This document shows positions 3,001-37,283 of a DNA stretch of 37,283 bases, in pieces. The stretch comes from Bacillus sp. AZ43. Its GTDB lineage: Bacteria; Actinomycetota; Actinomycetes; Mycobacteriales; Geodermatophilaceae. The stretch covers positions 1 to 37,283 of the forward strand of contig SPQJ01000040.1 in NCBI GenBank assembly GCA_004570425.1. The letters run 5' to 3'. Under the pieces are notes generated by a model. That model worked only from the letters and a program-made list of their open reading frames with translations. It had not been told where the DNA came from and did no database searches. The translations under genes were made by a program, and so were the position numbers. Within the stretch, counting starts at the first letter, position 1. Each line of letters opens with the position of its first letter.

Positions 3001-3462
3001 GCGCGTGCCGTGCGCAAGGTGCTGACGGCCGGCATCAAGGCGGAGGGGCCGATCCACGTCGACCGGCTGGCCAAGCTCACGGTGAACGCCTTCGGGCTCA
3101 ACCGCTCGTCGGAGGCGCGGAAGAAGGCGCTGCTCTCGCTGCTGCCGCCGTCGGCCGTGATCGGCGACTACCTGTGGCCGGAGGGGACCTCGCCGGAGAG
3201 CTACGAGGGCTTCCGCCGTCAGACGGCGAGCACCGACCGGCCGATCGACCACGTGGCGCCGGAGGAGATCGGCAACGCGATGGCGGCGCTCTGCCGGGCG
3301 TCGGCCGGGATGATGGCCGACGAGCTGCTCACCCAGACGGCCGCGATCTTCGGTTACAAGCGCCGGACGCCCACCGTGACGCCGGCGCTGGAGGCCGCGC
3401 TGAAGGTGGCGCTGCACCGCGGCCGTCTGGTCGAGCAGCCCTCCGGTCTGCTGACGGCCTGA
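1..3462 (+). CDS. Large superfamily 1 helicase-nuclease, DUF4011/DUF3320 type (5' end outside window)
   Basis: The frame is open to the first base, so the gene starts upstream and the Walker A region is not visible. What is present is the second half of a superfamily 1 (Upf1-like AAA_11/AAA_12) helicase. Walker B reads DEAS at about 1495-1506, motif III GDSKQM at 1567-1584, motif IV HYRSQD near 1720, NVQGDERD near 2128-2151, and motif VI VAVTRAR at 2251-2270. A PD-(D/E)XK-like segment typical of this family (MTES_1575 fold) lies at about 2415-2720, with the sequence FKVDLAV. An Ala/Pro-rich linker follows, then a C-terminal DUF3320 domain at about 2990-3450. Proteins of this kind are very large (well over 1500 residues) and often sit in defence or accessory regions; their substrate is not well defined. 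Family assignment is firm, physiological role is not. Confidence 0.9.
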   Translation, partial: AAGTDVEPLPVPLSFVANARPEVLRSVRVELALLPDIADLTRPSPRHPWAFVDSPDIDLPAVQAAAAAVDDAVREVSAIPALSGVLRQARRAAELDSLVHVLSGPRTGLDVIEETFTDFWTAATSAILGEIAAFTAFRHPGLDVCTPDVLQLPLAEVYVAAQTAAASSWWGRRRRLIAVRDSLAPYLRPGATVKPKDVPAVVENLWRVQTAVQAIAARAASIPGLSVPEGWNPFRDAELLAREVEWLRRAGACVDGASPFHVQLRKLIVAGLPEGTAAAEAVARLRDAVGDLVTAARSSDDQLAAWAGDDGLLFRWSMTRPERGSASPGSVLMSLRRWVSFLDTLEPLRFAGLFDARTLLLTGRVRADDAVRAFDRGLAAASVAERLDATGLDMFDAGAHEKSIRRFTRASRAVREHLTTALPARVLAARPFDAASGSGQVGALQRELAKQRRGLGVRQLLATYGELITQVMPCVLVSPDSVARFFPAAAGQFDLVVFDEASQIRVADAVGALGRARAAVVVGDSKQMPPTSFAEPSTVSDDGSELAETAVEDEESILSECVQARVPRQWLSWHYRSQDESLIAFSNAQYYGNRLSSFPAPTHGRPSSEPDGRGVSLVRVPGTFHRSGAGRLLRTNPIEAEAIVAEIRRRFDAVPKWDGVEAVPSIGVVTFNAQQRAYIESLLRDADDERLAAALDRTDGEGLFVKNLENVQGDERDVVFFSTGFSPNADGELPLNFGPLNRVGGERRLNVAVTRARRQVVVFSSFDPEQLRAEETSSVGIKHLRAYLDMAAQGTDVLPRDARSASVVDRHREEIAAALRERGLVVRTDVGLSEFKVDLAVARVADPETPLMAVLLDGPAWARRGTVGDRDGLPREVLGDMLRWPVVERVWLPSWLSSRDAVLERLVEAVDAVPSAPVAEPIPLPTAAVESFKGVAALRSSVTAAVAVTAPPAAAKPTPRPAARKPVGPAALDGETAFVPWLPKPAGEKSVLDELPASKAARAVRKVLTAGIKAEGPIHVDRLAKLTVNAFGLNRSSEARKKALLSLLPPSAVIGDYLWPEGTSPESYEGFRRQTASTDRPIDHVAPEEIGNAMAALCRASAGMMADELLTQTAAIFGYKRRTPTVTPALEAALKVALHRGRLVEQPSGLLTA

Positions 3463-8952: not shown

Positions 8953-9381
8953 GTGAACATCGACTTCTCGGTCCGTCTGCCGGTGGACGCGCGGAGCCTG
9001 CCCCTGATCCGGGGGCTGGTCCGGCAGACCCTCGAACACCTCGGCGTCCTCTCCAGCGGGATCGACGAGATCCTGCTCGCGCTGAGCGAGGCGTGCGCCA
9101 ATGTCATCCAGCACGCGCGCGACCAGGAGGAGTACCAGGTCGACGTCGTGATCGACGACCAGGTGTGCGTGATCTCCGTGCTCGACGACGGCGGCGGCTT
9201 CGACCTCGACGCCGTGAGCGCCGCGCGGCCCGAGTCGCCGCTCGACGGCGGGCGCGGCCTGATCCTCATGAACGCCCTGGTCGACCGGCTGGCGTTCGTG
9301 CAGGACGAGAGCGGCCGGCACCGGGTCACGCTCGAGAAGCGGCTGGTCACCTCGCCGCGGCTGCGCCTGCTCCCGACCTGA
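8953..9381 (+). CDS. RsbW-like anti-sigma factor serine kinase
   Basis: A 142-residue GHKL ATPase of the HATPase_c_2 type. The N box is LALSEACANVIQHA, the G1 box VLDDGGGFD and the G2 region GGRGLILMNALVD. Such proteins bind a sigma factor and phosphorylate their STAS antagonist. The GTG start at 8953 has GGAGG 7 bases upstream. It is divergent from the STAS/phytochrome-PP2C operon across 75 bases and converges with the BASS transporter 2 bases away. The obvious partner pair is this kinase with the neighbouring STAS protein; the pairing is inferred from position and family. Confidence 0.92.
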   Translation: MNIDFSVRLPVDARSLPLIRGLVRQTLEHLGVLSSGIDEILLALSEACANVIQHARDQEEYQVDVVIDDQVCVISVLDDGGGFDLDAVSAARPESPLDGGRGLILMNALVDRLAFVQDESGRHRVTLEKRLVTSPRLRLLPT

Positions 9382-10378: not shown

Positions 10379-11638
10379 GTGAGCGCACCTCCCACCGACT
10401 TCGCCGCCGAGGTCCGCGACGCCGTCCGCCGGCTGGCCGCCGTGGTCGAGCGGACGCCGCTGCAGCGCAACGCCCGGCTCTCCGGGCTCACCGGCGCCGA
10501 CGTGTGGCTCAAGCGCGAGGACCTGCAGGTGGGCCGGTCGTACAAGATCCGCGGCGCCTACAACACGATCAGCCAGCTCTCCCCCGACGCCCGGACCGCC
10601 GGGGTGGTCTGCGCGAGCGCCGGCAACCACGGGCAGGGCGTGGCCTACGCCTGCCGGGCGCTGCAGGTGCGCGGGCAGGTGTACGTGCCCGGCACCACGC
10701 CGCGGCAGAAGCGCGAGCGGATCGCGGCGCTCGGCGGCGACATGGTGGAGCTGGTCGTCGTCGGCGACTCCTACGACGAGGCCGCGGCCGCGGCGTCGGT
10801 GCGCGCGGCGACCACCGGCGCGACGCTGGTGCCGGCGTTCGACGCGCTGTCCACCGTGATCGGCCAGGCGACGGTCGCCGCCGAGATCCTCGAACAGCTG
10901 CCCGGGCCGCCGGACGTCGTCGTCCTCCCGGTCGGGGGCGGCGGGCTGCTGGCCGGCTGCGCGACGTGGCTGCGGCAGCACTCCCCCGGCACCCGGCTGG
11001 TCGGCGTCGAGCCGGCCGGCGCCGCGAACATGGCCGCGGCCCTGGCCGCCGGCGAGCCGGTGGAGCTGGCCGAGATCGACACGTTCGTCGACGGCGCCGC
11101 CGTGCGGAAGGCCGGTGCGGTGACGTTCCCGCTGGTGCGCGACTCGGGTGCCGAGCTGGTCGCGGTGCCCGAGGGGCAGATCTGCACCGAGATGCTCGAC
11201 CTGTACCAGGCCGACGGGGTGATCGCCGAGCCCGCGGGGGCGCTGGCGCCGGCCGCGCTGAGCGGCGGGGTGGTGACCGTGCGGCCCGGGCAGACCGTCG
11301 TCGCGCTGCTGTCCGGCGGCAACAACGACGTGAGCCGGTACGCCGAGGTGGTCGAGCGGTCGCTGGTGCACCGCGGGCTCAAGCACTACTTCCTCGTCGA
11401 GTTCCCCCAGGAGCCCGGCGCGCTGCGACGGTTCCTCGACGAGGTGCTCGGCCCGGACGACGACATCGTGCTGTTCGAGTACGTGAAGCGGGACAACCGG
11501 GAGACCGGCGCCGCGCTGACCGGCATCGAGCTGGGCTCGGCCGACGGCCTGGCCGGCCTGCTCGAGCGGATCGAGGCCAGTCCGCTGCGCATCCAGCACG
11601 TCGCCCCGGGGACGACGGCCTACCGCTTCCTGGTCTAG
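10379..11638 (+). CDS. ilvA: Threonine ammonia-lyase, biosynthetic type with C-terminal regulatory domain
   Basis: Catalyses PLP-dependent deamination of L-threonine to 2-oxobutyrate, the first step to isoleucine. From the chosen GTG the product has 419 residues. The PLP lysine is Lys56 in SYKIRGAYN, followed by SAGNHGQGVA and the glycine-rich phosphate-binding loop GGGGLLAG. A single ACT-like regulatory domain runs from about 330 (LKHYFLVEFPQEPGAL) to the end, as in the shorter Bacillus/Corynebacterium-type IlvA. This part usually senses isoleucine or valine. A TTG four codons upstream (10367) is possible; no strong Shine-Dalgarno supports either start. No attenuator or T-box was seen upstream. 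A degradative enzyme without isoleucine control is less likely given the C-terminal domain. Confidence 0.93.
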   Translation: MSAPPTDFAAEVRDAVRRLAAVVERTPLQRNARLSGLTGADVWLKREDLQVGRSYKIRGAYNTISQLSPDARTAGVVCASAGNHGQGVAYACRALQVRGQVYVPGTTPRQKRERIAALGGDMVELVVVGDSYDEAAAAASVRAATTGATLVPAFDALSTVIGQATVAAEILEQLPGPPDVVVLPVGGGGLLAGCATWLRQHSPGTRLVGVEPAGAANMAAALAAGEPVELAEIDTFVDGAAVRKAGAVTFPLVRDSGAELVAVPEGQICTEMLDLYQADGVIAEPAGALAPAALSGGVVTVRPGQTVVALLSGGNNDVSRYAEVVERSLVHRGLKHYFLVEFPQEPGALRRFLDEVLGPDDDIVLFEYVKRDNRETGAALTGIELGSADGLAGLLERIEASPLRIQHVAPGTTAYRFLV

Positions 11639-11743
11639 GAGCGCACGCTGGGGCAGGTGGGACCGGTGAACGTGTCGGACTTCGGGTCACACGTAACGGC
11701 GCCCTAGCTTTCGAGCCCTCGTCGTCTCGTCCGAGGGAGTCCC

Positions 11744-12988
11744 GTGAACGCTCGCTCCATCGTCCTGGCGGTCGCCTGGCTCGTGGCGCTGCTGTTCGTG
11801 ATCGGTGGCGTCGCCGCTGACGGCCTCGGCGGTGGGCTGGTCATGGCCGGGGTGGCGGCGCTGCTCCTCGGGGCGGGCGCGGCGATCGCGGGGCAGGCGC
11901 GCTGGGCACGCATCGCCAGCCGCCGGGTCGCCGCGATCGTGGCGGCCGCCGGCGTGGTCGCGGTCCTGGCCGGCGGCGCGATGGTGGGCCCCACGGCACC
12001 CGCTGCCTCCGAGACCGGGTCCACCCCTGCTCCGACCACGGCTTCGGCGAGCCGCACACCCAGCGGGGAGGAGCGCGAGGCGGCGCTCGCCGAGGCGGAG
12101 ACCGCCGAGGCCCGGCTCGCCGAGGCTGCACTGGCCGGCGCACTGACCGATGCCGATGCGGCGGCAGCCGTCGAGGGCGCGGGCCGCACGACGGCGTTGG
12201 CCGCGCTCGCCGCCGTCGAGGTGAAGGGCCGGGCGCCCCGCACCGGCTACGACCGCGATCTCTTCGGGTCCGGCTGGGTGGACACCGACCGGAACGGCTG
12301 CGACACCCGCAACGACATCCTCGCCCGCGACCTGACCGACGAGACGTTCAAGCCGGGCACCCGCGACTGCGTCGTCCTCACGGGGAACCTGGCCGACCCC
12401 TACTCGGGCCACGGCATCGCGTTCCAGCGCGGGCAGGGCACCAGCGACGACGTGCAGATCGACCACGTCGTCGCGCTGTCCGACGCCTGGCAGAAGGGCG
12501 CGCAGCAGCTCGACGTCGCGCGGCGGACGGCGTTCGCCAACGACCCCCTGAACCTGCTCGCCGTCGACGGGCCGCTCAACATGCAGAAGGGCGACGGCGA
12601 CGCGGCGACCTGGCTGCCGCCGAACCGCGCCTACCGATGCGACTACGTCGCTCGCCAGGTAGCCGTGAAGGTGAGCTACGAGCTCTGGATGACGCAGGCG
12701 GAGAAGAACGCCATCGCGACGATCCTCAGCGCGTGCCCGGACCAGCCCCTGCCCGGCGGTGTCGTCGCGGTGCTCCCGGAGCCCGCCCCTGCTCCCGCAC
12801 CGGCTCCGGCTCCGAAGCCCGCACCCGCACCGGCTCCGGCCCCGGCCCCGGCTCCCGCGCCGGCCCCGGCCCCCTACTACAAGAACTGCACCGCAGCCCG
12901 GGACGCGGGCGCTGCACCCGTCCGGCTCGGTGACCCCGGGTACGGCACCCACCTCGACCGCGACGGCGACGGCATCGGCTGCGAGTAG
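11744..12988 (+). CDS. Membrane-anchored HNH (DUF1524-type) nuclease with C-terminal excalibur domain
   Basis: A 414-residue protein. Three hydrophobic segments lie near the N-terminus (about 5-26, 30-50, 62-82), followed by an Ala/Glu-rich stalk. The nuclease domain is at about 165-335: GYDRDLFG, the metal-binding QIDHVVAL with His241, and NDPLNLLAVDGPLN. A Pro-Ala repeat linker at 346-377 leads to an excalibur domain, YYKNC to the calcium-loop-like DRDGDGIGCE at the C-terminus. In actinobacteria such DUF1524-excalibur proteins are secreted or surface nucleases, perhaps for DNA scavenging. GGGAG 4 bases before the GTG supports the start. The extracellular location is inferred from the helices and the domain type. 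Confidence 0.9.
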   Translation: MNARSIVLAVAWLVALLFVIGGVAADGLGGGLVMAGVAALLLGAGAAIAGQARWARIASRRVAAIVAAAGVVAVLAGGAMVGPTAPAASETGSTPAPTTASASRTPSGEEREAALAEAETAEARLAEAALAGALTDADAAAAVEGAGRTTALAALAAVEVKGRAPRTGYDRDLFGSGWVDTDRNGCDTRNDILARDLTDETFKPGTRDCVVLTGNLADPYSGHGIAFQRGQGTSDDVQIDHVVALSDAWQKGAQQLDVARRTAFANDPLNLLAVDGPLNMQKGDGDAATWLPPNRAYRCDYVARQVAVKVSYELWMTQAEKNAIATILSACPDQPLPGGVVAVLPEPAPAPAPAPAPKPAPAPAPAPAPAPAPAPAPYYKNCTAARDAGAAPVRLGDPGYGTHLDRDGDGIGCE

Positions 12989-12989
12989 C

Positions 12990-13685
12990 TCAGAGCCAGA
13001 CGGGCGGTGGCGGGACGTCGCCGCGCAGGCCCTCGACGCGTCCGCGGGTGAGCCAGGCGACGACCGCGGCGACCGGTCCCTCCACCGGCTGCCCGCTCCC
13101 CCACGTCCGGTCCACGTCGGTCGCGACGACGGTGACCCCCAGGTCCTGGTCGCGGGACCCGAACAGCGCCAGGACGTCGTCGACCAGCGCGGCGGCGAGG
13201 TCGCGCGGGAGGTCGGCGAAATCGAGCCCGGCGCGCAGGTCGGTGCCATGCACCCAGAGCTCCTTGGCGCGCATCCACGGCACGAGGGACGCGACCACGA
13301 GGGCGCCCTGGCCGTTGCGCACGGTGGCCTGCCACGCCTCGGCCGGCATCTCCTCGATCGCCGTGGCGAGCCGGCCGGCGGCCGCGGCGAGGTCGGCGCG
13401 CAGCTGCGCCGGCTCCAGGGCCGCGGTCGTCTCGATGTCGGCGTCGCGGACCGCGCGCGAGGGGTACATCGGCGTCTCGGCACCGGTGCGCGCCCAGGTG
13501 AGCAGGTTGACCAGGGCGTCGGCGTTGCGGGCCACGTGCGCGACGACGTGCGCGCGGCTCCAGCCCGGGAGCGCGGAGGGCGCCGCCAGCTCGTCGTCGG
13601 TCAGCCGGTCGACGGCGTCGGCGACGGCTCGCTCGCCGTCGGCCCACCAGCGGCGGGCGTGGTCGTGCGGAGGGGTGTCGGGCAC
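12990..13685 (-). CDS. Maleylpyruvate isomerase family mycothiol-dependent enzyme (DinB-like)
   Basis: A 231-residue soluble protein of the actinobacterial DinB/MDMPI superfamily. The N-terminal four-helix-bundle signature is LPGWSRAHVVAHVARNADAL, with a candidate metal-binding His, and a second His occurs in WMRAKELWVHGTDL. Related enzymes bind a divalent metal and use mycothiol as thiol. The reaction of this member is unknown. The start is the GTG at 13685; the binding site is poor. It converges with the HNH-excalibur gene, stops 1 base apart, and lies just downstream of the response regulator gene on the same strand (16-base gap), so read-through from that operon is possible. Confidence 0.85.
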   Translation of the reverse strand: MPDTPPHDHARRWWADGERAVADAVDRLTDDELAAPSALPGWSRAHVVAHVARNADALVNLLTWARTGAETPMYPSRAVRDADIETTAALEPAQLRADLAAAAGRLATAIEEMPAEAWQATVRNGQGALVVASLVPWMRAKELWVHGTDLRAGLDFADLPRDLAAALVDDVLALFGSRDQDLGVTVVATDVDRTWGSGQPVEGPVAAVVAWLTRGRVEGLRGDVPPPPVWL

Positions 13686-13701
13686 CCACCGAACCTAGCG
13701 G

Positions 13702-14349
13702 TCACGCGGTCATGAAGCCGCTCTCGTAGGCCGCGATCACCGCCTGGGTGCGGTCCCGCGCGCCCAGCTTGAGCAGCACGCTGCTGACGTGCGTCTTCAC
13801 CGTCTCGCGGCTGAGGAAGAGCTCGGTGGCGATCTCGGCGTTGGACAGCCCGCCGGCGACCAGCCGGAGGACGTCGGCCTCCCGGCCGGTCAGCGCCGGG
13901 AGGGCCGCGGGGCCGCGGGCCCGCGACGGCGCGTGCGCCGCGATCAGCCGGCGGGTCAGGTCCGGCAGCACGAGGGAGGTCCCGCGCGCGACGACCCGGA
14001 TCGCGTCGACCAGCTCGTCGGGATCCGACCGCTTCAGCGCGAAGCCGCTCGCCCCGGCCTGCAGCGACCGGAACAGGTAGTCGTCGTCCTCGAAGGTCGT
14101 CAGCACCAGCACCCGCGGCCGCTGCGGGTCGCGGGCGACCAGCTCCCGGGTCGCGGTGATGCCGTCCATGTCGGGCATCCGGACGTCCATGAGGACGACG
14201 TCCGGGTCGGTCGCGGCGGCGACGTCCAGCGCCTCGCGGCCGGTGCCGGCGTCACCCACGACGGTCAGGTCGGGCTCGCTCTCCAGGATCACCCGCAGCC
14301 CGGAGCGGACCAGGACGTCGTCGTCCACGAGCAGGAGTCGCAGGCTCAT
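13702..14349 (-). CDS. NarL/LuxR-type response regulator
   Basis: A 215-residue regulator: a receiver domain (LLLVDDD at 5-11, phospho-acceptor Asp55 in [10 protein letters not shown], conserved Lys in GFALKR) and a C-terminal LuxR helix-turn-helix ([22 protein letters not shown], then SRETVKTHV). The ATG at 14349 overlaps the kinase stop as ATGA, so translation is coupled to the kinase. A 10-codon upstream extension would lie inside the kinase gene and is not used. The regulator probably controls the divergent ABC exporter genes; this is inferred from gene order. Confidence 0.95.
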
Positions 14350-15620
14350 GCGGCGCCCGACAGCGGCAGCGTCACGCACAGCTCGAAGCCGCCGGACGGC
14401 GTCGGCTCGGCGCTGAGGGTGCCTCCCGCGGCGGCCGTCCGCTCGCGCAGCCCGGCCAGTCCGCGGCCTCCGCCGGGGCCGGGGCGGCTGTCCGTCTGCG
14501 GCGCGCGCTCGTTGCAGACGCGGGTGACCAGGGTGTCGCCGCTCCGGACCACCTGGGCGACGGTCAGCGGGGTGCCCGCGTGCCGCAGCACGTTCGTCGT
14601 CCCCTCCTGGACCACGCGGTAGGCCAGCTCCTGCACGCCGGGGGGCACGTCCTCGACGTCGCCGTCGACGACCAGGGCGACCGGGAGACCGCCGTCCCGG
14701 AGTCCCGCGAGGAGGCCGTCGAGGTCGGCGAGCGACGGCGCGGCGAACGGCGCGGGGTCACGGCCGCCGTCCTCGGCGCGCAGCACCGTGAGCACCCGGT
14801 CGAGCTCGGCGAGTGCGGTGCGGGTGTTGGTCTCGATGTGCTCCAGGGCCTGGCGGGCGAAGTCGGGCTGCAGCGGCCGGTCGTCCGGCGGCGTGAGGGT
14901 GCGGCGGGCGGCGGTGGCCTGCAGCAGGCTGGCGGTCAGTGCGTGCCCGATGGTGTCGTGCAGGTCGCGGGCCAGCTTGTTGCGGTCGGCGAGCCGCCGG
15001 GTGCTCTGCTGCAACGCGGCGATGGCCTGCTCGGGTGCGGTGCCCAGCAGCCGGGGTGCCACGGAGGCGGCCAGCCGCACGAGCAGGTCGAGCACCGCCA
15101 GGGTGAGGACGACGACCGCGACCATGAACGCCAGCAGCGGCAGCGCGGTGAGCGCGTTCCAGTCGGCGCCCCAACCGAGGTAGGCGAACCCGAGGCCGCC
15201 GAAGAACAGCGTGGCGAGCGTGGCCGCGCCCATCAGCACCCGCGCGCCGAGCCAGCCCAGCGCCCGCCAGGTTCCGGTCGACATCACCAGCCGCCGGAGC
15301 TTGCGGATGATCCCCGGCTGGTCGAGGACCCGCTCGCCGGCGGGGACGTCGACGGCGAGGAGCGTGCGGACGAGCCGCCGTTCGACGCCGGCGAAGCCCC
15401 GAGTGGTCGCGAGCACCAGCAGGATGAGCAGCACGCCGACGCCGTAGACCAGCGCGATCACGGATCCGAACAGCCCGAAGAACAGCGCGAGGTAGAGGGC
15501 GCCGAACGGCAGGCTCGCCAGCGCGTACAGGGCGCGGCCGGGCCAGCCGGGGCGCGCGACGGCGAGCAGCTCGCGCACCCGAGCAGCGATCTCGGGGGCC
15601 GAGCTCGGAAAGGTCGTCAC
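14346..15620 (-). CDS. DesK/LiaS-like membrane histidine kinase
   Basis: A 424-residue sensor kinase. The N-terminal part (about 25-190) has two pairs of membrane helices and matches the actinobacterial putative sensor domain. HisKA_3 follows with phospho-acceptor His221 in [13 protein letters not shown], then a GHKL ATPase with the N box [10 protein letters not shown] (Asn343) and a G box [14 protein letters not shown]. The start is the GTG at 15620 with AGGA 7 bases before it; the frame is open far upstream but only as the antisense of the ABC gene. The kinase is coupled to its response regulator and divergent from an ABC ATPase/permease pair. Such pairs commonly sense membrane or antibiotic stress; the signal here is not known. 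Confidence 0.93.
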
Positions 15621-26917: not shown

Positions 26918-27739
26918 TTAGTTGGCGTTGAGGCCGAATCGCCGGGTGAGCAGCTTGAACTTCCAGTACGACTCGATCTGCTCGATGGTGTCGTCGGGAG
27001 TGTTGCCGTCGACGACTTCCCGCACCGACACCTGGTAGTGGCGGCGGCCGTGGCGGGCTACGGCCTTGAGGCGGACGTCGCCGCCGTCACCGCCGTTGGC
27101 GTACTCCAGCCAGCGGCCGAGCAGGCTGTCCGCGCCCTTCGCCGAGCCGACGTACTGCTGTCCGGACTCGACGTCGACCAGCAGGTACACGCCCTTCACG
27201 GCGCGCAGCACCTGCTGCCAGCCGTGAGGGAGGGTGGGGATGTCATCGACCGGCCGGACGAACTCGCGGAACCCGGGGAAACGGGGTTCGTACTGCTCGG
27301 CGATCTCGAGGACCGGCTTGGGCTGGTTGGCGGCTCGCTGCACCCAGGTCCGTGTGCCGGCACCCCAGTCGATGACGACCTTGTCGGTGTAGTCGCCGAG
27401 TTGCTCGAGCAGCCGCAGGTCGTAGCCGTGAAAGCCGGACACGTCGCCGCCGGTCAGGACGTCGACGGTGCCCGCCGGGCTGGTGGTGATGCCGGCGACC
27501 TCGTAGAGGCCGACGAACACGGTCTTCCGGGCCTCGGTCACGATGAAGCTGGCGATCAGGTCGCCCACATCGAAGACGTTGCGCTGCTGGACGCTCTGGT
27601 ACCGCTCGAACGTGGATCTGTCGTTTCGCCAGGCCTCGTAGAGCCGGCCGGGCTTCAGTCGGTTGTCCTGGTGCCGGACCAGGCGGACCTGCGCCGGGTC
27701 GACACCCTCGAGGGACAGCAGGTCGTTGAACGTCAGCAT
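26918..27739 (-). CDS. GIY-YIG nuclease-domain protein
   Basis: A 273-residue protein. The N-terminal 175 residues are an unrecognised domain rich in aromatic residues (YEAWRNDRSTFERYQ, FVGLYEVAG). The C-terminal domain has the complete GIY-YIG set: GVY at 183-185, YVG at 196-198, catalytic Arg209, metal Glu256 in QIESYWK and Asn271 in GLNAN. AGGGG lies 6 bases before the ATG at 27739, so that start is preferred over an ATG two codons upstream. This is neither UvrC (too short) nor an intron homing enzyme; a defence or DNA-processing role is possible. The tiny gene at 27769-27936 may share its mRNA. Confidence 0.87.
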   Translation of the reverse strand: MLTFNDLLSLEGVDPAQVRLVRHQDNRLKPGRLYEAWRNDRSTFERYQSVQQRNVFDVGDLIASFIVTEARKTVFVGLYEVAGITTSPAGTVDVLTGGDVSGFHGYDLRLLEQLGDYTDKVVIDWGAGTRTWVQRAANQPKPVLEIAEQYEPRFPGFREFVRPVDDIPTLPHGWQQVLRAVKGVYLLVDVESGQQYVGSAKGADSLLGRWLEYANGGDGGDVRLKAVARHGRRHYQVSVREVVDGNTPDDTIEQIESYWKFKLLTRRFGLNAN

Positions 27740-27768
27740 CCGCATCCCCTGGCTGAGCCGCGCATGGG

Positions 27769-29179: not shown

Positions 29180-30814
29180 TCAGGAGGTGAGCCGGCGGGC
29201 GACGGCCTCGCCGCCCACCCGGCGGATCAGTTCCAGGTCGCCGCACACGACGAGGAGATCGCGAGCACGAGACAGCCCGACGTAGAGCATTTCCCGGGCG
29301 CGGTCCTCGTCCCGGAAGCCGTTGACGGCCAGGACGACGGCGGGGCGCTCGAGGCCCTTGAAGCCGAGGACGTGCCCGTAGAAGACGTCCTCGCCGTCCC
29401 AGAAGGACGACCAGTACGCCTCCTGGCCCGTGTTCTGACGGGCTGCCTGCTCGGGGTGCCGGCGGTACGTCGTCAGCAGGGCGACCGCCTCGTACGGCCA
29501 GCCGTCGTCGAGCAGTGCCTCGATGGCGTCGTCAGCGGCATCCAGGGCGTCGTCCGTGGGGCACTGGACGAAGCGGACCGGGACGCCGTTGCCGCCGCGG
29601 TTCTTCATCTGGGACGTCGTCAGGCTGCCGAAGGTGCCGGCGATCTGCTTGGTGTTGCGCAGGTTCTCGGTGAGGTTGATCGGTGTCAGCGCCACCGGCG
29701 GGCGGCCCTGGCGGGCGAACACGCGCTGCCCCTCGTCGGCGAACACGTAGAGGCAGCCGTCGTCCGGACGGCGGAGCGCGGCCAGGACCGCCGGCCACCA
29801 GCTCTCCGCGAAGTCCTGCGCCTCGTCGATGACGATCGCGTCGAACCGCTCGGCCTCGGGCAGCGCTCCGGCGAGGGCGACCATCTCGCCCGGCAGGTAC
29901 TCCTCCCAGTAGCGGCTGTCGTCGTCGGAACCTTCCCCGACGCCCCAGCTGATGCCCAGGTAGTGGAAGGTGCCGACGTAGGCGGGCTGCTCCTTCGGCC
30001 GCCACGTGGCGACCCGTCGCTTGAGGAACTCGGCGAGCCCGCGCGAGTAGCACATGACGGCGACGCGCTGCCCCGCGAGAGTCAGCCGGCGGGCCTTCTC
30101 CAGCGCCAGCCAGGTCTTGCCCGACCCGGCTCCCCCGCGGATCTCCACCCGCGGGTTGTCCTCGAGCATGTCGAGGACGCGCGCCTGGTCGCGCGTGAGC
30201 AGGTCGCACTCCGCCTCGCGCTCGTGGAGGGTCGCGAGGAGGTCCTGCTGCGGGATGCCGACTCCGACCAGGCAGTCGACGAGCTGCTCGACCTCGTCGG
30301 CCGACGGCGGCTGGGTGTCGTGCTCGAGCTGGCGCAGCGCGGAGGCGATGCGTTCGGCCGCATGGGGTGTGTCCGTGCTGTCCAGGACCATCCACCGCGG
30401 CGCGTCGGGGGCCTCGAAGCCGTCGGGCAGCGTCGTCGCCGGCAGCGCGACGAGATGGACCATGCGCGGGTCGCCGCTCGTCCAGCGACGGTCGCGACGC
30501 AGGTAGTCGCGCAACAGGTACTTGCACTTCTTCGCCTGGTCCACCGGCCAGATGCGCTTGTCGATCCCGCCGCCGACCTGCCGCCACTCGCCGCCGCGCA
30601 GCGAGACGCTGCCGCCCTTGACCTCGATGACGGCGATCCCGAAGCCGGGCCAGGCCACGATCACGTCGGCCTCGCGGTCCTGCTTGCGGTCGCTGAAGAC
30701 CTGCCCGCAGATGACGACGGCGTCGTCGGGCAACTGCTCGCACAGCGCCTCGGAGAAGGAGCGCTCGGCGTGCGACTCGTAGACCGGTTCGGCCGGGTAG
30801 CGGCGGGCCGCCAT
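29180..30814 (-). CDS. NERD-domain UvrD/Rep-like helicase
   Basis: A 544-residue fusion. Residues 10-120 are a NERD (nuclease-related) domain with PD-(D/E)XK-like residues Asp50, Glu64 and Lys66 in ADVIVAW and AVIEVKGG. The superfamily 1A helicase follows: Walker A GGAGSGKT at 227-234, DEAQD at 330-334, NLTENLRNT, and the C-terminal YVGLSRARDLLVV. The domain set predicts a 3'-5' DNA helicase with a nuclease partner domain. Helicases of this build are often found in defence islands or mobile DNA, though some are chromosomal repair genes. The ATG at 30814 has GGGA 7 bases upstream. Confidence 0.93.
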   Translation of the reverse strand: MAARRYPAEPVYESHAERSFSEALCEQLPDDAVVICGQVFSDRKQDREADVIVAWPGFGIAVIEVKGGSVSLRGGEWRQVGGGIDKRIWPVDQAKKCKYLLRDYLRRDRRWTSGDPRMVHLVALPATTLPDGFEAPDAPRWMVLDSTDTPHAAERIASALRQLEHDTQPPSADEVEQLVDCLVGVGIPQQDLLATLHEREAECDLLTRDQARVLDMLEDNPRVEIRGGAGSGKTWLALEKARRLTLAGQRVAVMCYSRGLAEFLKRRVATWRPKEQPAYVGTFHYLGISWGVGEGSDDDSRYWEEYLPGEMVALAGALPEAERFDAIVIDEAQDFAESWWPAVLAALRRPDDGCLYVFADEGQRVFARQGRPPVALTPINLTENLRNTKQIAGTFGSLTTSQMKNRGGNGVPVRFVQCPTDDALDAADDAIEALLDDGWPYEAVALLTTYRRHPEQAARQNTGQEAYWSSFWDGEDVFYGHVLGFKGLERPAVVLAVNGFRDEDRAREMLYVGLSRARDLLVVCGDLELIRRVGGEAVARRLTS

Positions 30815-31458: not shown

Positions 31459-33138
31459 TCAGCCCAGCGGCAGGGTGAGGGACGACGGGGTCGCGCCGCC
31501 GTGCCGGATCCGGTGGTTCACGGGCACGCCCTCCGTGGCCCGGCCGGGCGGTTTGCCGGTGCCGAGGTTGCGCGCGTACCGCGGGTGGGCCCCGCCGGAC
31601 ACCTGCAGCCGGATCCGGTGCCCGGCCCGGAAACGGTGCGCGGTGTCGGGCAACGTCGCCTTGACGACCCGCTCTCCCGCCTGTGGCCTTTCGCCCTCGG
31701 CGGGGTCGAGCCGGACGAGGCGGTCGGTGATGTTGATCGACTTCCCGTTCGGGCCCACGTCGCACAGCCGCACGAACACGTCGGCGTACGGGTTGTCGGG
31801 CGCAACGAACAGCCTGAGCCGCACGCCGCCGCGCAGCTCGATCGGCTGCCGGAGCGCCGTCGTGGTGAAGGTGCGGACGTCGTCCCGTTTCTCCAGCGCC
31901 GTGTTGTCCCGCGGGCCGGCGCTGCGGGCGAGGACGCGGCCGCCGACCGCGGGCGTGGGGTCCATCGGGTCGTAGCGGAACGTCGTCTCCGACGCGTCCG
32001 CGGGCGTTTCGTCGTCCAGACGCCCGTTCGGCGCCAGGTACCAGGTGCGGGTGGTGGTGGCCGGCGGCCAGTCGGGCAGCTTCCGCCACGTCCGCGCGCC
32101 GGTGACGTAGACGCGGACGCGGTCGGTGCGCGGCGGCACCGGCTCCGCGCCCTTCACCGGCAAGTGTGCGTTCAGCCAGGCGAGGCTCTCCCGCGCGGTG
32201 ACCGCCGGGTCTATGGTGAGGTGCGCCCACGGGCCGATGGTGAGGCCGACCTCGACGCCGCGGCCGCGGAGGACGGCGTACTGCTGCAGCGTCTGCTCGA
32301 CGAACCAGTCCTGCCAGCCGCCGACGAGCAGGGTCGGGACGGTGCTCGAGTGGACGGCGGGCGTGGCCCGGTACCGATCCCAGTAGGGGTCGTCGAGGTC
32401 GGGGTGATCGAGCCACTCGTCGAACCACGGCGCCGGGTCGCCGCCGAGGCGCTCGGCCAGACCTTGCAGGGGAAGCTCGCCCAGGTGCGGGGTGAGCCGG
32501 CGCTCCGCCGTCATCAGGCGGAGGACGCCGCGCAGGGGGCTGACCTGCTCCTGGTGGGCGATCAGCTCGGTCCAGATGGCGAGGTTGGTGAGCTGGAAGG
32601 CGCCGTCGACCATGCCGGCCTGCGCGAGGTCGTGCGGGCCGGTGTTCATGACCATCGCCTTGAGCTCGGGCGGCGGGTCGAGCGCCAGCGCCCACTGCGT
32701 GTAGGCGAGGTAGCTGGGGCCCAGGGTCGCCAGCCGGCCGTCGAACCAGGGCTGGTCGCGCAACCAGACAACGGAGTCCTGACCGTCGTGCTCCTCGTTG
32801 ACGACGGGGGTGAACTCGCCGCCGGAGCCGAACGTGCCGCGCACGCTCTGCATCACCACGGCGTAGCCGCGGGCCGCGAACGGGATGGCCAGGGTGAGGG
32901 CGAACCCGCCGGCCCGGCCGTACGGCGACCGCAGGAGGACCGTCGGGTGCGGTCCGGCGGTGTCCGGCAGGTAGACGTCGGCCCGGAGGACGCAGCCGTC
33001 GCGCATGGGGACGTCGAGGTCGCGGAGCATGCTGACCGGAGACGTGGGGCCGGGCAGCTTCCACCGGCAGTCGAGCGCGGCGACGGCGATGCGGGCCGGG
33101 CGGGACAGCGGCTGCGGCGAGCGGGCGGACACGGACAC
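31459..33138 (-). CDS. CocE/NonD family hydrolase (X-Pro dipeptidyl-peptidase-like)
   Basis: A 559-residue alpha/beta hydrolase with the S15 layout: an N-terminal catalytic domain and a C-terminal jelly-roll (PF08530-like, from about 340). The triad candidates are Ser in LGPSYLAYTQWA, Asp in LLVGGWQDWF and His in GPWAHLTID. The usual GGSYGG elbow is GPSYLA here, as in many actinobacterial members. Such enzymes cleave esters or X-Pro peptides; cocaine esterase is the type member. GGAGG 4 bases before the GTG at 33138 sets the start; the longer frame to 33318 has no binding site. There is no signal peptide, so it is probably cytoplasmic. Confidence 0.9.
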   Translation of the reverse strand: MSVSARSPQPLSRPARIAVAALDCRWKLPGPTSPVSMLRDLDVPMRDGCVLRADVYLPDTAGPHPTVLLRSPYGRAGGFALTLAIPFAARGYAVVMQSVRGTFGSGGEFTPVVNEEHDGQDSVVWLRDQPWFDGRLATLGPSYLAYTQWALALDPPPELKAMVMNTGPHDLAQAGMVDGAFQLTNLAIWTELIAHQEQVSPLRGVLRLMTAERRLTPHLGELPLQGLAERLGGDPAPWFDEWLDHPDLDDPYWDRYRATPAVHSSTVPTLLVGGWQDWFVEQTLQQYAVLRGRGVEVGLTIGPWAHLTIDPAVTARESLAWLNAHLPVKGAEPVPPRTDRVRVYVTGARTWRKLPDWPPATTTRTWYLAPNGRLDDETPADASETTFRYDPMDPTPAVGGRVLARSAGPRDNTALEKRDDVRTFTTTALRQPIELRGGVRLRLFVAPDNPYADVFVRLCDVGPNGKSINITDRLVRLDPAEGERPQAGERVVKATLPDTAHRFRAGHRIRLQVSGGAHPRYARNLGTGKPPGRATEGVPVNHRIRHGGATPSSLTLPLG

Positions 33139-33448: not shown

Positions 33449-34042
33449 TCACTCACCGCCTTGAGCGGCCTCCGAAATGATTACGACACCGATTGCTGAG
33501 ATGGTCGTCACGACACTATACAGCTGCAGTAGTGCGTAGCACGCGATCATGATGCCCAGGAAGAAGAGAAGCGTGTGCAAGCTGACTACGTCCGCGGGCC
33601 AGACGACAGCATTCCCCGCCGTTATCACTGCGCCGACCCCGTACGTAAGAGCCAAGAGGTGCAGCATGCCCGACCAGGAGAAAACAAAAATGAGCTCGCT
33701 GTAATGAGAGAACTGCTGACCAGGCAGACTTCGCGTCGCCCAGACACGTCTTTGCCCCCTGAGAGCAATGCTGAGAGCAAGGACCGCGCCCGTGACACTG
33801 GCCGCAAAGGCAATCCCAGCGACCGCGATCTCGACATTCGCAAGGGTCGATATCTTCAACGCCCTCAGCGGACCAAAGTTGAATGCACCTATTGTGCATA
33901 TGGCCGCTACGACCGACGACACCCATAAATGCCTGTCTAACAGCAGCCGCTTACGCCTAGGAAGGACCTGTCCGCGCCAGTACTTTCCATCGGATGACTC
34001 TCGCCCAACCCACGGTGGCGACGGTGCAGTCGGTTCAGACAT
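33449..34042 (-). CDS. Polytopic membrane protein, unknown, paired with the upstream gene
   Basis: A 197-residue protein with four to five membrane helices: about 37-56, 67-94, 116-147 (perhaps two), and 152-190 (perhaps two). The N-terminal 35 residues are hydrophilic and basic before the first helix. I recognise no family. The ATG at 34042 begins 29 bases after the stop of the soluble partner on the same strand, so the two are likely one operon. Codon use is AT-richer than the host genes. By layout it could be a membrane-damaging effector or a membrane sensor; nothing in the sequence decides between these. Confidence 0.78.
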   Translation of the reverse strand: MSEPTAPSPPWVGRESSDGKYWRGQVLPRRKRLLLDRHLWVSSVVAAICTIGAFNFGPLRALKISTLANVEIAVAGIAFAASVTGAVLALSIALRGQRRVWATRSLPGQQFSHYSELIFVFSWSGMLHLLALTYGVGAVITAGNAVVWPADVVSLHTLLFFLGIMIACYALLQLYSVVTTISAIGVVIISEAAQGGE

Positions 34043-34071
34043 CGCAGTGACTCAAGCGGTGCATGCAACGA

Positions 34072-34986
34072 TCATGACTCATCCAGGTTCGCGACAGCAG
34101 CGTTATCCACATCGTCAAAGAGCGCGTCGGCTGCATCAGCGATGACCTCTCGCTCGTCTCGGTCCGGCGCCCCCCGGACGAGCCGCACGAACCGACGAGC
34201 GTGATGGCGAAGGAGGGACACACTCGTCTCGCGATCTTCACCCGCCCGTCGCCCTGTCACCCGAAGATCCTCCGCCATGCCACCACTCTGTGCAGCGAAG
34301 TTCTTAATGTCTGCCACGATGCCCTCATCCGGGTCGAGGGATTCGCCCCGCTGGGCGGACATCTCTACAGATACGCGGCCGGCCCGCGACTCGGCACCAT
34401 ATCGCGTCAGCGGACCGACATGGTCTGACCAATCCAGGTTGGGGCGCGTAAGGACCACCGCAGCTTCCCTGATTCGCTCGAATTTTTCTATTTCTTGCCG
34501 AAAGCTCTGAGAAGGCACAGGGGTCAGGCTGATCGTTAGCCTACTGAAGTCGAGCGCTTCGCGCCCGATCGCACTCAATCCTCGTGCGATCAATTGCACC
34601 GGCACGCCGGGACGGCGCCTTTCGATGGCCACCAGCCGCGCCTCGGGTCTGACAATGACCTGCGTTGTATAGGCGAGGAGTCGATCCCCTAGGTTCTCGT
34701 AACGCTCTTCCTGGGTCTCTGGGTCGAAGGTCAGCGGGGGAAGTCCGCTCTGCGCATTCAGGAAGCGCATCGCCCAGCCGCGACCGGTCTCCGCCATATC
34801 GGTGATGGCGACAACGTCACCCCTCAGCTCAGTCTGCCGAGAGCCCGGAGCTAGAGCAGCCAGATCACGAAAGAACTCCTCATAGTCCAGTACACCGTCG
34901 GCGGTATGGCCGCTGATCACGTACGCGTACACCGGCCGATTCTCGAACTCAGGCGCCACCAGATACTCCCTCGCACGGTAGTACAC
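34072..34986 (-). CDS. Soluble protein of unknown function, 304 aa, paired with a membrane protein
   Basis: A hydrophilic protein without signal peptide or membrane helix. The first half looks like an alpha/beta fold (VYAYVISG, VVAITDM, RGWAMRFLNAQ, AYTTQVIVRPEARLVAIERRRPG). The second half is helical with many charged residues, including the basic run RLLRHHARRFVRLVRG-like near 262-277. The pattern RFLN...P...LGDRLLAYTTQVIV...LVAIERRRPGV loosely recalls DUF4747/DUF6731-type proteins from memory; this is not a call. The start is a GTG at 34986 or the TTG just before it; only a weak AGG precedes them. It is 214 bases downstream of hsdR on the same strand and 29 bases before the membrane protein gene. 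Confidence 0.75.
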   Translation of the reverse strand: MYYRAREYLVAPEFENRPVYAYVISGHTADGVLDYEEFFRDLAALAPGSRQTELRGDVVAITDMAETGRGWAMRFLNAQSGLPPLTFDPETQEERYENLGDRLLAYTTQVIVRPEARLVAIERRRPGVPVQLIARGLSAIGREALDFSRLTISLTPVPSQSFRQEIEKFERIREAAVVLTRPNLDWSDHVGPLTRYGAESRAGRVSVEMSAQRGESLDPDEGIVADIKNFAAQSGGMAEDLRVTGRRAGEDRETSVSLLRHHARRFVRLVRGAPDRDEREVIADAADALFDDVDNAAVANLDES

Positions 34987-35200
34987 CAAACCTATACGAC
35001 CGTGGACAGTTAGGTGGTGCCATTGGCTCGAAGGGCGTCAAGTTTCTTACGCGGCGGCTTTGCGGGCCGCGGCCTCATCCTCTCCATGTGAGACGGATGT
35101 GGGAGGGGCATAGGGCGGAGAAGGTCCGCTGTTAGGGATCGGCAGCGCCACCAGGCACCCCTGGACAGACTGCGATCGCATTGTTTCGGACCGCGTTCGG

Positions 35201-37283
35201 TCAGGCTCTCGCGGGCTCGTCGTTCGCCGCCTCGTAGAACGCGTCTGCCAGGGCGACGATGACGCCATTGACCCCGGGGCCGTCGCTGAAAAAGTAGTCC
35301 GCCATGGCGTTGTGGGCGCCTTGGTTGTCGACGACTGCCTCGGTGACCGCTACCTGGAAGTCCTGTGACTCGAGGAACTGCTTCTTGGAGTTCACCTGCG
35401 TCTGCTTGACCAGGTCGGGGTAGGACAGCAGTCGCTGAACGAGACCTTGGACGAACTCCCGGATCTGGGACTCGAGGAAGGTCTCGGCGCCGAACAGGTC
35501 GTTCATCTTGTCGATGACGACCTGGAGGGCGACGTACTTGGGCTCCTTCTTCGTGCCGGTGCCGGCGGCGCTGATGCCCTTGAGCTGTCCGTCGCCGGTC
35601 AGCGAGATGTCGACCGCGACGCCCTTGGTGTGCTTGACCCCGACCAGGACCACGTCGAACAGGTCGACCTCTGCCGCCCAGGAGGTTTCGTCGATGACCC
35701 GCTCCAGGAGGCGCAGGAAGATCGAGAGCATCTCCAGGTAGGGGTCGCCGTAGTCGACGATCTGGCTCATGAAGTCGTAGAGCCGCACGTAGGTCGAGAC
35801 GTCCTTGCGGAACAGGTCCAGCGCGTTGAGGGTGACCTTGTCGTCCTCCTCGAGCGCCCGGGCGTAGCGGCGCGCGAAATCGTGCTGGGCCGGGCTGATC
35901 GCCGCGGAAAGGGCGTTGTTGCCCTTGCGGGTGACCCACAGCTCGGCGACCTGGCGGACCTGGTCCTCGGTGTAGATGCCGGCCTGGGTGAGCTTGGTCG
36001 CCAGGTGGACGACGACGTAGGGGTCGGTCTCGGTCTCCAGCGTGGCGTTCTTGAAGTACGGCTCGAAGGCGGCCTTGATGTCCTCGGGCTTGTTGACGAA
36101 GTCGATGACGAACGTCTTGCGCTTCTGCTCCCCACCGGCGGTGCGGTGGGTGCGGTTGAGCCGCGACAGCGTCTGCACCGCGGTCACGCCCGACAGCTTC
36201 TTGTCGACGTACATGGCCGAGAGCAGCGGTTGGTCGAACCCGGTCTGGAACTTGTTGGCGACCAGCATGACCTTGTAGGTCTCACCCTTGAATGCCGCCG
36301 CCAGGTCGGCGCCGGCGCCGGGGTTCATGTTCGCCTCGGTGAAGTCGTCGTCATTGCTCGGAGCGGGGCCCCAGTCGGCGCCCCAGACCTCGTCCTCGTC
36401 CATGCGCACCGCGCCGGAGAAGGCCACCAGCGTGCGGTAGCTGTAGGAGGGATCCGTGGCGGCCCGATCGTCGATGTAGGCGTCGATGGCCTTCTTGTAC
36501 TTCACCGCGGCCTTGCGTGAGTCGGTCACGACCATCGCTTTGGCCTTGCCCTCGAGCAGGTGGGCGACGTTGGCGTGGAAGTGCTCGACGATGATCTGGA
36601 CCTTCTGGCTGATGTTGGTCGGGTGCAGGCGCACCCACCGCATCAGGCCCTTGCGGGCCGCCCCTTCTTCGACCTCGCCCTCGCTGTTGGCGTTGCCGGC
36701 GATCTTCAGGGCGGTCTCGTAGGCCTGGTAGCCCTTGAGGACGTCGAGGATGTAGCCCTCCTCGATGGCCTGCTTCATCGAGTACAGGTGAAACTCGCGC
36801 GGCTTGCCGTCGGGCCCCTTGCGTCCGAACAGCTCCAGGGTCTTGTTCTTTGGGGTGGCGGTGAAGGCCAGGTAGGAGATGTTGGGCGACTCGGCCCGTT
36901 CAGTCATCTCCGCGGCCAGGATGGACTCGACGTCGACCTCGCCGCCGTCCTCGATCTCCTGGAGCTCCTCCGCGGTCAGGACCTGCTTCAGCTTCGAGGA
37001 GATCTGCCCGGACTGCGAGGAGTGCGCCTCGTCGGCGATGACGGCGAACGTCTTGCCGCTCAAGCCTGCGTCGGCCCGAATCTCCTCCAGCGCGTGCGGG
37101 AAGGTCTGCACCGTCACCGCGATGATCAGCTCGCCGTTCTTCAACGCCGTCGCCAGCAGGCTGGACTTCGACTTCGCGCCCGCCTTGCGGACATCTTCGG
37201 GGCTGATCGTGGCCACGATCTTGCCGGTGCCATCGATCTGCCGGATCGCGTCCTGGAGCTGCCCGTCGAGCACCGTGCGGTCC
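35201..37283 (-). CDS. hsdR: Type I restriction enzyme subunit R (5' end outside window)
   Basis: The frame runs off the right edge, so the N-terminal nuclease domain and Walker A are not visible; the first readable residues (DRTVLDGQLQD) are the usual segment after motif Ia. Then come motif II in FAVIADEAHSSQSG, motif III in AFTATPKNKTLELFG, and the C-terminal motor motifs MLVANKFQTGFDQP and TVQTLSRLNRTHR. A long helical C-terminal region for assembly with HsdM/HsdS ends at 35201. The enzyme translocates DNA and cuts it when the HsdS site is unmethylated. hsdM and hsdS are expected beyond the window. All visible motifs are intact. Confidence 0.95.
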   Translation of the reverse strand, partial: DRTVLDGQLQDAIRQIDGTGKIVATISPEDVRKAGAKSKSSLLATALKNGELIIAVTVQTFPHALEEIRADAGLSGKTFAVIADEAHSSQSGQISSKLKQVLTAEELQEIEDGGEVDVESILAAEMTERAESPNISYLAFTATPKNKTLELFGRKGPDGKPREFHLYSMKQAIEEGYILDVLKGYQAYETALKIAGNANSEGEVEEGAARKGLMRWVRLHPTNISQKVQIIVEHFHANVAHLLEGKAKAMVVTDSRKAAVKYKKAIDAYIDDRAATDPSYSYRTLVAFSGAVRMDEDEVWGADWGPAPSNDDDFTEANMNPGAGADLAAAFKGETYKVMLVANKFQTGFDQPLLSAMYVDKKLSGVTAVQTLSRLNRTHRTAGGEQKRKTFVIDFVNKPEDIKAAFEPYFKNATLETETDPYVVVHLATKLTQAGIYTEDQVRQVAELWVTRKGNNALSAAISPAQHDFARRYARALEEDDKVTLNALDLFRKDVSTYVRLYDFMSQIVDYGDPYLEMLSIFLRLLERVIDETSWAAEVDLFDVVLVGVKHTKGVAVDISLTGDGQLKGISAAGTGTKKEPKYVALQVVIDKMNDLFGAETFLESQIREFVQGLVQRLLSYPDLVKQTQVNSKKQFLESQDFQVAVTEAVVDNQGAHNAMADYFFSDGPGVNGVIVALADAFYEAANDEPARA

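Follow-up and report, generated by a model that had tools for sequence, protein, structure and literature searches.

A conserved gene pair beside a type I restriction gene is a candidate Rex-like abortive-infection unit

Genes at the locus and their surroundings

The window, by which the whole stretch of DNA analysed is meant (37,283 bases), is an entire contig. The gene pair considered here is on the minus strand, close to the right end of this contig. The gene order on that strand runs from hsdR through 214 bases without a recognised gene to the gene for a soluble protein, and then to the gene for a membrane protein. The features are as follows:

35201..37282, minus strand: hsdR, type I restriction subunit, truncated by the contig end (gene 35201-37273, frame open to 37282); a neighbour outside the pair
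34072..34986, minus strand: soluble-protein gene, 304 aa from a GTG at 34986; proposed RexA/DUF4747-like infection sensor
33449..34042, minus strand: membrane-protein gene, 197 aa from an ATG; proposed RexB-like membrane effector
33674..33739, minus strand: end of the TM2-TM3 loop and start of TM3, membrane-protein residues 102-123; proposed contact for the soluble partner

These gene calls agree with an earlier sequence-only reading, in which two minus-strand genes encoding 304 and 197 residues followed hsdR and were separated by a gap of 29 bases (34043-34071). The open frame of the soluble protein covers 34072-34989 (-), and an in-frame TTG at 34989 offers an alternative start that would give 305 aa. 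The GC content is 61.9% for the soluble-protein gene, 57.6% for the membrane-protein gene, 65.3% for hsdR and 73.4% for bases 1-31000 of the window, which bears out the earlier remark that both genes are richer in AT than their host. The hsdR product matched the Pfam models SWI2_SNF2 (42.5 bits) and T1R_D3-like (42.9 bits), both above cut-off, and REase_I (E 3.1e-18). Its match to TIGR00348 (E 3.7e-32, 111.6 bits) fell below the cut-off of 284.55, which is expected because the protein is truncated.

Other defence genes lie on the same contig. The gene at 26918-27745 (-), about 6 kb from the pair, matched the full length of the PADLOC model for UzuA (Uzume) with an E of 3.6e-82, and the C-terminus of its product is weakly similar to a group I intron endonuclease. 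The gene at 29180-30814 (-) encodes a NERD nuclease with a UvrD-like helicase; its best PADLOC match was RTasNERD-Hel (E 2e-33), and a stretch of it is 83% identical at the DNA level in the congener G1020. Adjoining the pair is a gene for an S15 peptidase, for which 4 of 15 congeners gave a match. Three of these were examined; their S15 gene was 81-83% identical, and neither the pair nor hsdR was found beside it (matches of at least 200 bases). In G1010, a 593-base stretch matching hsdR at 65% lies about 8.5 kb from the S15 gene. The comparison of window positions 31459-33136 with the congener regions L030-L035 showed conserved blocks around the S15 gene in different order, which suggests that the surroundings of this gene are a variable region. 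No CapK/CapS genes were found between hsdR and the pair, and the stretch from hsdR to the S15 gene holds no recognised repressor-like gene.

Conservation of the pair and its distribution

Among 396 genomes of the phylum, the soluble protein was detected in its own genome and in G092 (E 2.6e-30); among 394 of the class, it was detected in its own genome and in G740. G092 belongs to another class, with 29% identity in the soluble protein, and G740 to another order, with 45% identity. In both of these other confident genomes (2/2) the membrane-protein gene lies directly downstream of the soluble-protein gene, overlapping it by 38 bases in G092 and by 4 bases in G740, and the encoded membrane proteins (200 and 192 aa) are 25% and 40% identical to that of the window, respectively. 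The accidental keeping of two open frames is unlikely because they are adjacent in 2/2 genomes at such identities and, judged from these comparisons, the two genes are a genuine unit that is conserved as a pair. The sequence-only reading had named homologues that never occur side by side as counter-evidence, and adjacency was what was found.

The soluble protein was present in 1 of 298 genomes of the window's order and in 1 of 112 of its family, in each case its own genome. The searches around the two homologues likewise returned only G092 itself in its order (1/8) and class (1/24), and only G740 itself in its family and order (1/3); the genome samples overlap, and each search covered at most about 400 genomes. 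The plasmid searches yielded no relative, some of them giving between one and three weak matches, all unrelated, and no relative of the pair was found in the phage and viral-contig searches. A peptide-pattern scan of genome contigs also gave no relative, a scan so insensitive that this absence means little. The pair is rare and sporadic, and it is probably mobile.

This distribution bears on the reading that the two genes encode a chromosomal membrane complex without a defence role, for example in stress sensing, and that they adjoin hsdR by chance. Such a complex would be at home beside the neighbours of the G092 pair, which, where scanned, are not recognisable defence genes. It is much harder to reconcile with the finding of no such pair in the other 111 genomes of the window's family, with a GC content below that of the surroundings, and with the S15 peptidase genes of the three congeners, which lack the pair as a neighbour, and we consider it very unlikely.

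In terms of neighbourhood, PADLOC was blank across 9 open frames around the pair in G092, a set that probably includes frames that are not genes. In the G740 locus (L022), a YegP-like (DUF1508) gene (9049-9357, minus strand) lies upstream of the pair, a TrwC relaxase gene (10889-14482, minus strand) lies about 2 kb upstream, and no restriction genes were found among 9 neighbouring frames in a Pfam scan. YegP-like genes are also described behind CapK/CapS (PMC13373217). Recurrence next to restriction or other defence genes had been put forward earlier as a check; the pair does recur together, but no such neighbours were seen among the scanned frames of G092 and G740. The link to restriction is one that the window shows and the scanned frames of the other loci do not.

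The relaxase gene, together with the sporadic distribution and the gene order that varies among congeners in the region of the window pair, would suit a second reading, in which the pair does not abort infections but stops incoming DNA at the membrane, as part of entry exclusion, superinfection exclusion or some other mobile-element function. In the window itself, no mobility gene was found among six proteins scanned and no tRNA was found. Mobility also does not discriminate between the readings, since mobile elements carry defence genes too. We regard exclusion as unlikely.

Three further loci (L006-L008) gave weak matches to the soluble profile over short stretches (E 3.0e-4 to 9.2e-4; with a second soluble profile, E 5.4e-5, 0.012 and 0.08). 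They showed no membrane-profile match at E <= 1 within loci of about 3 kb and were left uncounted as homologues. L006 (G106:C17) holds a 412-aa open frame with an E of 5.4e-5 to the soluble family among 2,512 open frames drawn from 18 sequences (the fetched loci plus the window); a membrane partner is absent from the fetched stretch.

Sequence leads for the two proteins

Neither protein matched a family above cut-off in PADLOC, NCBIfam, Pfam or PHROGs, in keeping with the earlier statement that neither matches a recognised family. No confident match to a housekeeping family, the other outcome named as counter-evidence, appeared in these profile libraries, and no enzyme family was recognised there for the soluble protein. 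The only Pfam lead for the soluble protein was DUF4747 (PF15931), which aligned residues 165-241 with model positions 157-232 of 257 at an E of 0.21 and 11.5 bits; this score, like every DUF4747 score given here, falls below the Pfam gathering cut-off of 27 bits. The match is collinear and confined to the C-terminal half. A fragment of the protein that was picked after seeing the match reached an E of 0.071, and two consensus sequences of the soluble family reached E values of 0.07 and 0.021 (13.0 and 14.7 bits), the better one over residues 139-231 on model positions 142-231 of 257. Such a gain with consensus sequences is how a distant true match would be expected to behave, yet the scores stay below the cut-off. 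DUF4747 was not preselected, and the interest in it derives from the literature on Rex-like pairs.

Taken singly, the soluble homologues of G092 and G740 gave no DUF4747 match at E <= 10, and neither did CarolAnn gp44, Butters gp30 and RexA in the same Pfam scan. The sole DUF4747 match among 296 genomes, in G105, was rejected; it lies in a frame that we take to be FtsQ, and the adjoining frames are presumably MurC-, MurB- and FtsZ-like. Other low-scoring matches were phrog_10040, of unknown function, with the soluble protein (E 0.35) and YbaB with one soluble consensus (E 0.16). The invariant positions of the soluble family alignment include an RPN..W.D stretch among others. The single-sequence structure model of the soluble protein had an unusably low pLDDT of 38, and PDB profile searches matched no solved structure confidently to either family profile; matches to peptide deformylase, YetL and Lsm7 (E 0.17-1.5) were taken as chance.

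Direct comparison of the soluble protein with RexA-like proteins gave no match to the Pfam RexA model (PF15969) at E <= 1. With hhalign, the scores of the soluble profile against the CarolAnn group, Toast/Butters and RexA were reached by 2, 10 and 1 of 16 shuffles, respectively; the control, in which the CarolAnn group was compared with RexA, failed likewise, so the power of this comparison is low. The hmmsearch E values of the soluble profile against RexA-like proteins were 0.25 or worse for those listed.

Kiwa, in which the four-helix protein KwaA is paired with KwaB, is similar to the window pair in its protein sizes and in its layout of one membrane and one soluble protein. The sequence-only reading had chosen it as the comparison and had remarked on the lack of a KwaB/DUF4868 signature. 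That remark was confirmed, as no PADLOC Kiwa model (KwaA or KwaB) and no DUF4868 model matched either protein at E <= 1 in PADLOC, Pfam or NCBIfam. Neither family profile had a confident solved-structure match that could have pointed to a divergent Kiwa system, and we consider this explanation highly improbable. The comparison was misplaced; among known kinds, the DUF4747/Rex-like pair comes nearest.

For the membrane protein, a simple hydropathy script marked five segments in the window sequence; the counts for the homologues were four (G092) and three (G740). Four helices, perhaps five, is the best reading for the window protein despite the five segments, because the last hydrophobic stretch is long; this agrees with the four to five helices counted earlier. 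The arrangement of Rex-like pairs, namely a cytoplasmic protein and an adjacent four-helix protein that are kept as a pair, was found in 3/3 loci (window, G092 and G740), where the count of four helices is our reading of these script segments.

Residues 102-123, which form the end of the TM2-TM3 loop and the start of TM3, are among the best conserved parts of the membrane protein. Ten of its positions are invariant here in 3/3 sequences (A102, T103, G108, S112, S115, L117, F119, V120, F121 and W123), and the invariant residues of the family include FVF.W and YA.L motifs. The TM2-TM3 loop holds 4 K+R versus 1 D+E in the window protein and 2 versus 4 in both homologues; because the homologue loops are not basic, the positive-inside rule backs a cytoplasmic loop in the window protein only. 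The proposal that the soluble partner may contact residues 102-123 is drawn by analogy with Sbash gp31 and its central loop.

The membrane protein gave no match to the Pfam RexB model (PF15968) at E <= 10. The lambda proteins served as the control for the two Rex models (RexA 326.8 bits, RexB 305.4 bits), and the CarolAnn and Butters proteins were also without a match, which gives this test low power. A match to MBOAT_2 (E 0.0069) was set aside, as it covers 33 residues only, is below cut-off and is absent from the homologues. With hhalign, the membrane profile aligned with Toast gp41/Butters gp31 from TM2 to TM4 with a score of 22.3, compared with a maximum of 15.9 for column shuffles (n=16). 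Because such shuffles break up hydrophobic runs, multi-helix controls were added, and the maximum among 14 unrelated multi-helix open frames, not necessarily all genes, was 17.1 (18 frames minus three of the own family and CarolAnn gp43). When the homologue from L041 was included, the score was 24.6 over 111 columns. The membrane frame of L041 was also the best match outside the family among the 2,512 open frames (E 0.25), a set in which Toast gp41 stayed above an E of 1. In a plain hmmsearch of about 20 proteins, the E values were 0.36 for Butters gp31, 6.5 for Toast gp41, 0.19 for CarolAnn gp43 and 0.28 for Sbash gp31, so that the Toast/Butters proteins scored no better than those of CarolAnn and Sbash. 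The hhalign scores of the membrane profile against the CarolAnn group and RexB were reached by 11/16 and 14/16 shuffles.

L041 is a viral contig that holds, at 1333-3162, a Toast/Butters-like Rex pair with the soluble gene split over two reading frames and an open 200-codon membrane frame after it.

The fact that Butters gp31, Toast gp41 and the L041 partner are the only weak relatives found for the membrane protein could mean that the pair works as Butters does, in that the soluble protein exerts the antiviral effect and its membrane partner anchors and restrains it until infection. Butters gp30 alone is reported to block phages, and gp31 weakens the block (PMC7542560). Both genes are reported to be required for defence in CarolAnn (gp44/gp43) and Sbash (gp30/gp31) (PMC6426606, PMC6426596, PMC7542560), which argues against a restraining partner, as does the lack of an enzyme family in the soluble protein, though no such family would be needed by an effector that binds DNA. 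We consider an effector role for the soluble protein rather unlikely.

Rex-like systems and the proposed mode of action

The pairs of CarolAnn, Sbash, Butters and lambda are described as a DUF4747-like cytoplasmic protein with a four-helix membrane protein, where the DUF4747 assignment comes from weak HHpred matches as well (PMC6426606, PMC6426596, PMC7542560). Those of CarolAnn, Sbash and lambda (RexAB) are reported to abort infection. Mapping for CarolAnn and Sbash identified phage genes linked to the trigger, and the model put forward by the authors is a membrane channel that the cytoplasmic protein opens. Purified CarolAnn gp44 has been studied as a RexA homologue (PMC11077077). In Pseudomonas putida, overexpression of the RexA-like partner is reported to lead to membrane damage by the membrane partner, and an early 2026 count in that report gives only five RexAB-like systems described (PMC12894663). 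Butters-like pairs are known in actinobacterial genomes (PMC7542560). Of 443 capK loci, 17 are reported to have a DUF4747/CarolAnn operon downstream of CapK/CapS, and nearly 20% of the CapK/CapS loci are said to be flanked by a restriction system on one side and an immune operon on the other (PMC13373217). In a Salmonella case, the DUF4747 gene has 894 bp and the next locus tag is a 606-bp hypothetical gene (PMC11181664).

With DUF4747/CarolAnn systems, the window pair shares the weak collinear C-terminal match and a soluble protein of about 300 aa, and in the published Salmonella case the partner gene encodes about 200 aa, so that the sizes are like those of the window pair. Such loci can hold restriction-modification, as the window does, but the window lacks CapK/CapS. 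With the actinobacteriophage pairs Butters gp30/gp31 and Toast gp42/gp41, it shares a gene order in which the soluble protein comes first and a four-helix protein of about 200 aa comes next, as well as the weak collinear similarity of the membrane proteins over TM2-TM4; the soluble partners of Butters and Toast are longer (403 and 337 aa) and have no detectable similarity to that of the window. CarolAnn gp44/gp43 and Sbash gp30/gp31 have the same two-gene layout and four helices, and a gene overlap that is also seen in the G092 and G740 pairs, but neither protein showed sequence similarity above shuffles to this group, which was tested together with Sejanus. Lambda RexA/RexB has the same architecture of a cytoplasmic sensor and a four-helix membrane protein, without a match of the window proteins to the Pfam models. 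The two weak leads, DUF4747 for the soluble protein and Toast/Butters for the membrane protein, point to one kind of system.

Our preferred interpretation, held with moderate confidence, is that the pair is an undescribed Rex-like abortive-infection unit, meaning that it would work like these systems rather than being a proven member of DUF4747 or Rex. The division into a sensor and a membrane effector is inferred because the anatomy matches the CarolAnn, Sbash and P. putida pairs and because the end of the TM2-TM3 loop is conserved. A new sensor and membrane-effector system had been suggested from the sequence; this is still the best reading, but the kind is not wholly new, as DUF4747/Rex-like pairs come closest.

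In such a Rex-like unit, the two genes would be co-transcribed, and in the uninfected cell the membrane protein would be inserted and closed. Phage growth would activate the soluble protein, which is probably dimeric and would bind either DNA or a phage product. The activated soluble protein would then contact the membrane protein at its TM2-TM3 loop on the cytoplasmic side, and this contact would open or disrupt the membrane. The resulting drop in membrane potential and ATP would abort the infection, and defence of this kind would be the role of the pair.

It is possible, although on balance doubtful, that the pair founds an unnamed and mobile two-gene family of abortive-infection systems that has the Rex layout with sequences unlike those of all described Rex systems, and that in the window backs up the restriction system as a second defence. 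Rex-like operons outside phage genomes are already known, also next to restriction systems, and the novelty would lie in the sequences of the window pair. So divergent a family, which reaches into another class through one homologue, would provide fresh sequences for studying how a cytoplasmic sensor may open a membrane protein, and the conserved TM2-TM3 region of the membrane protein is directly testable.
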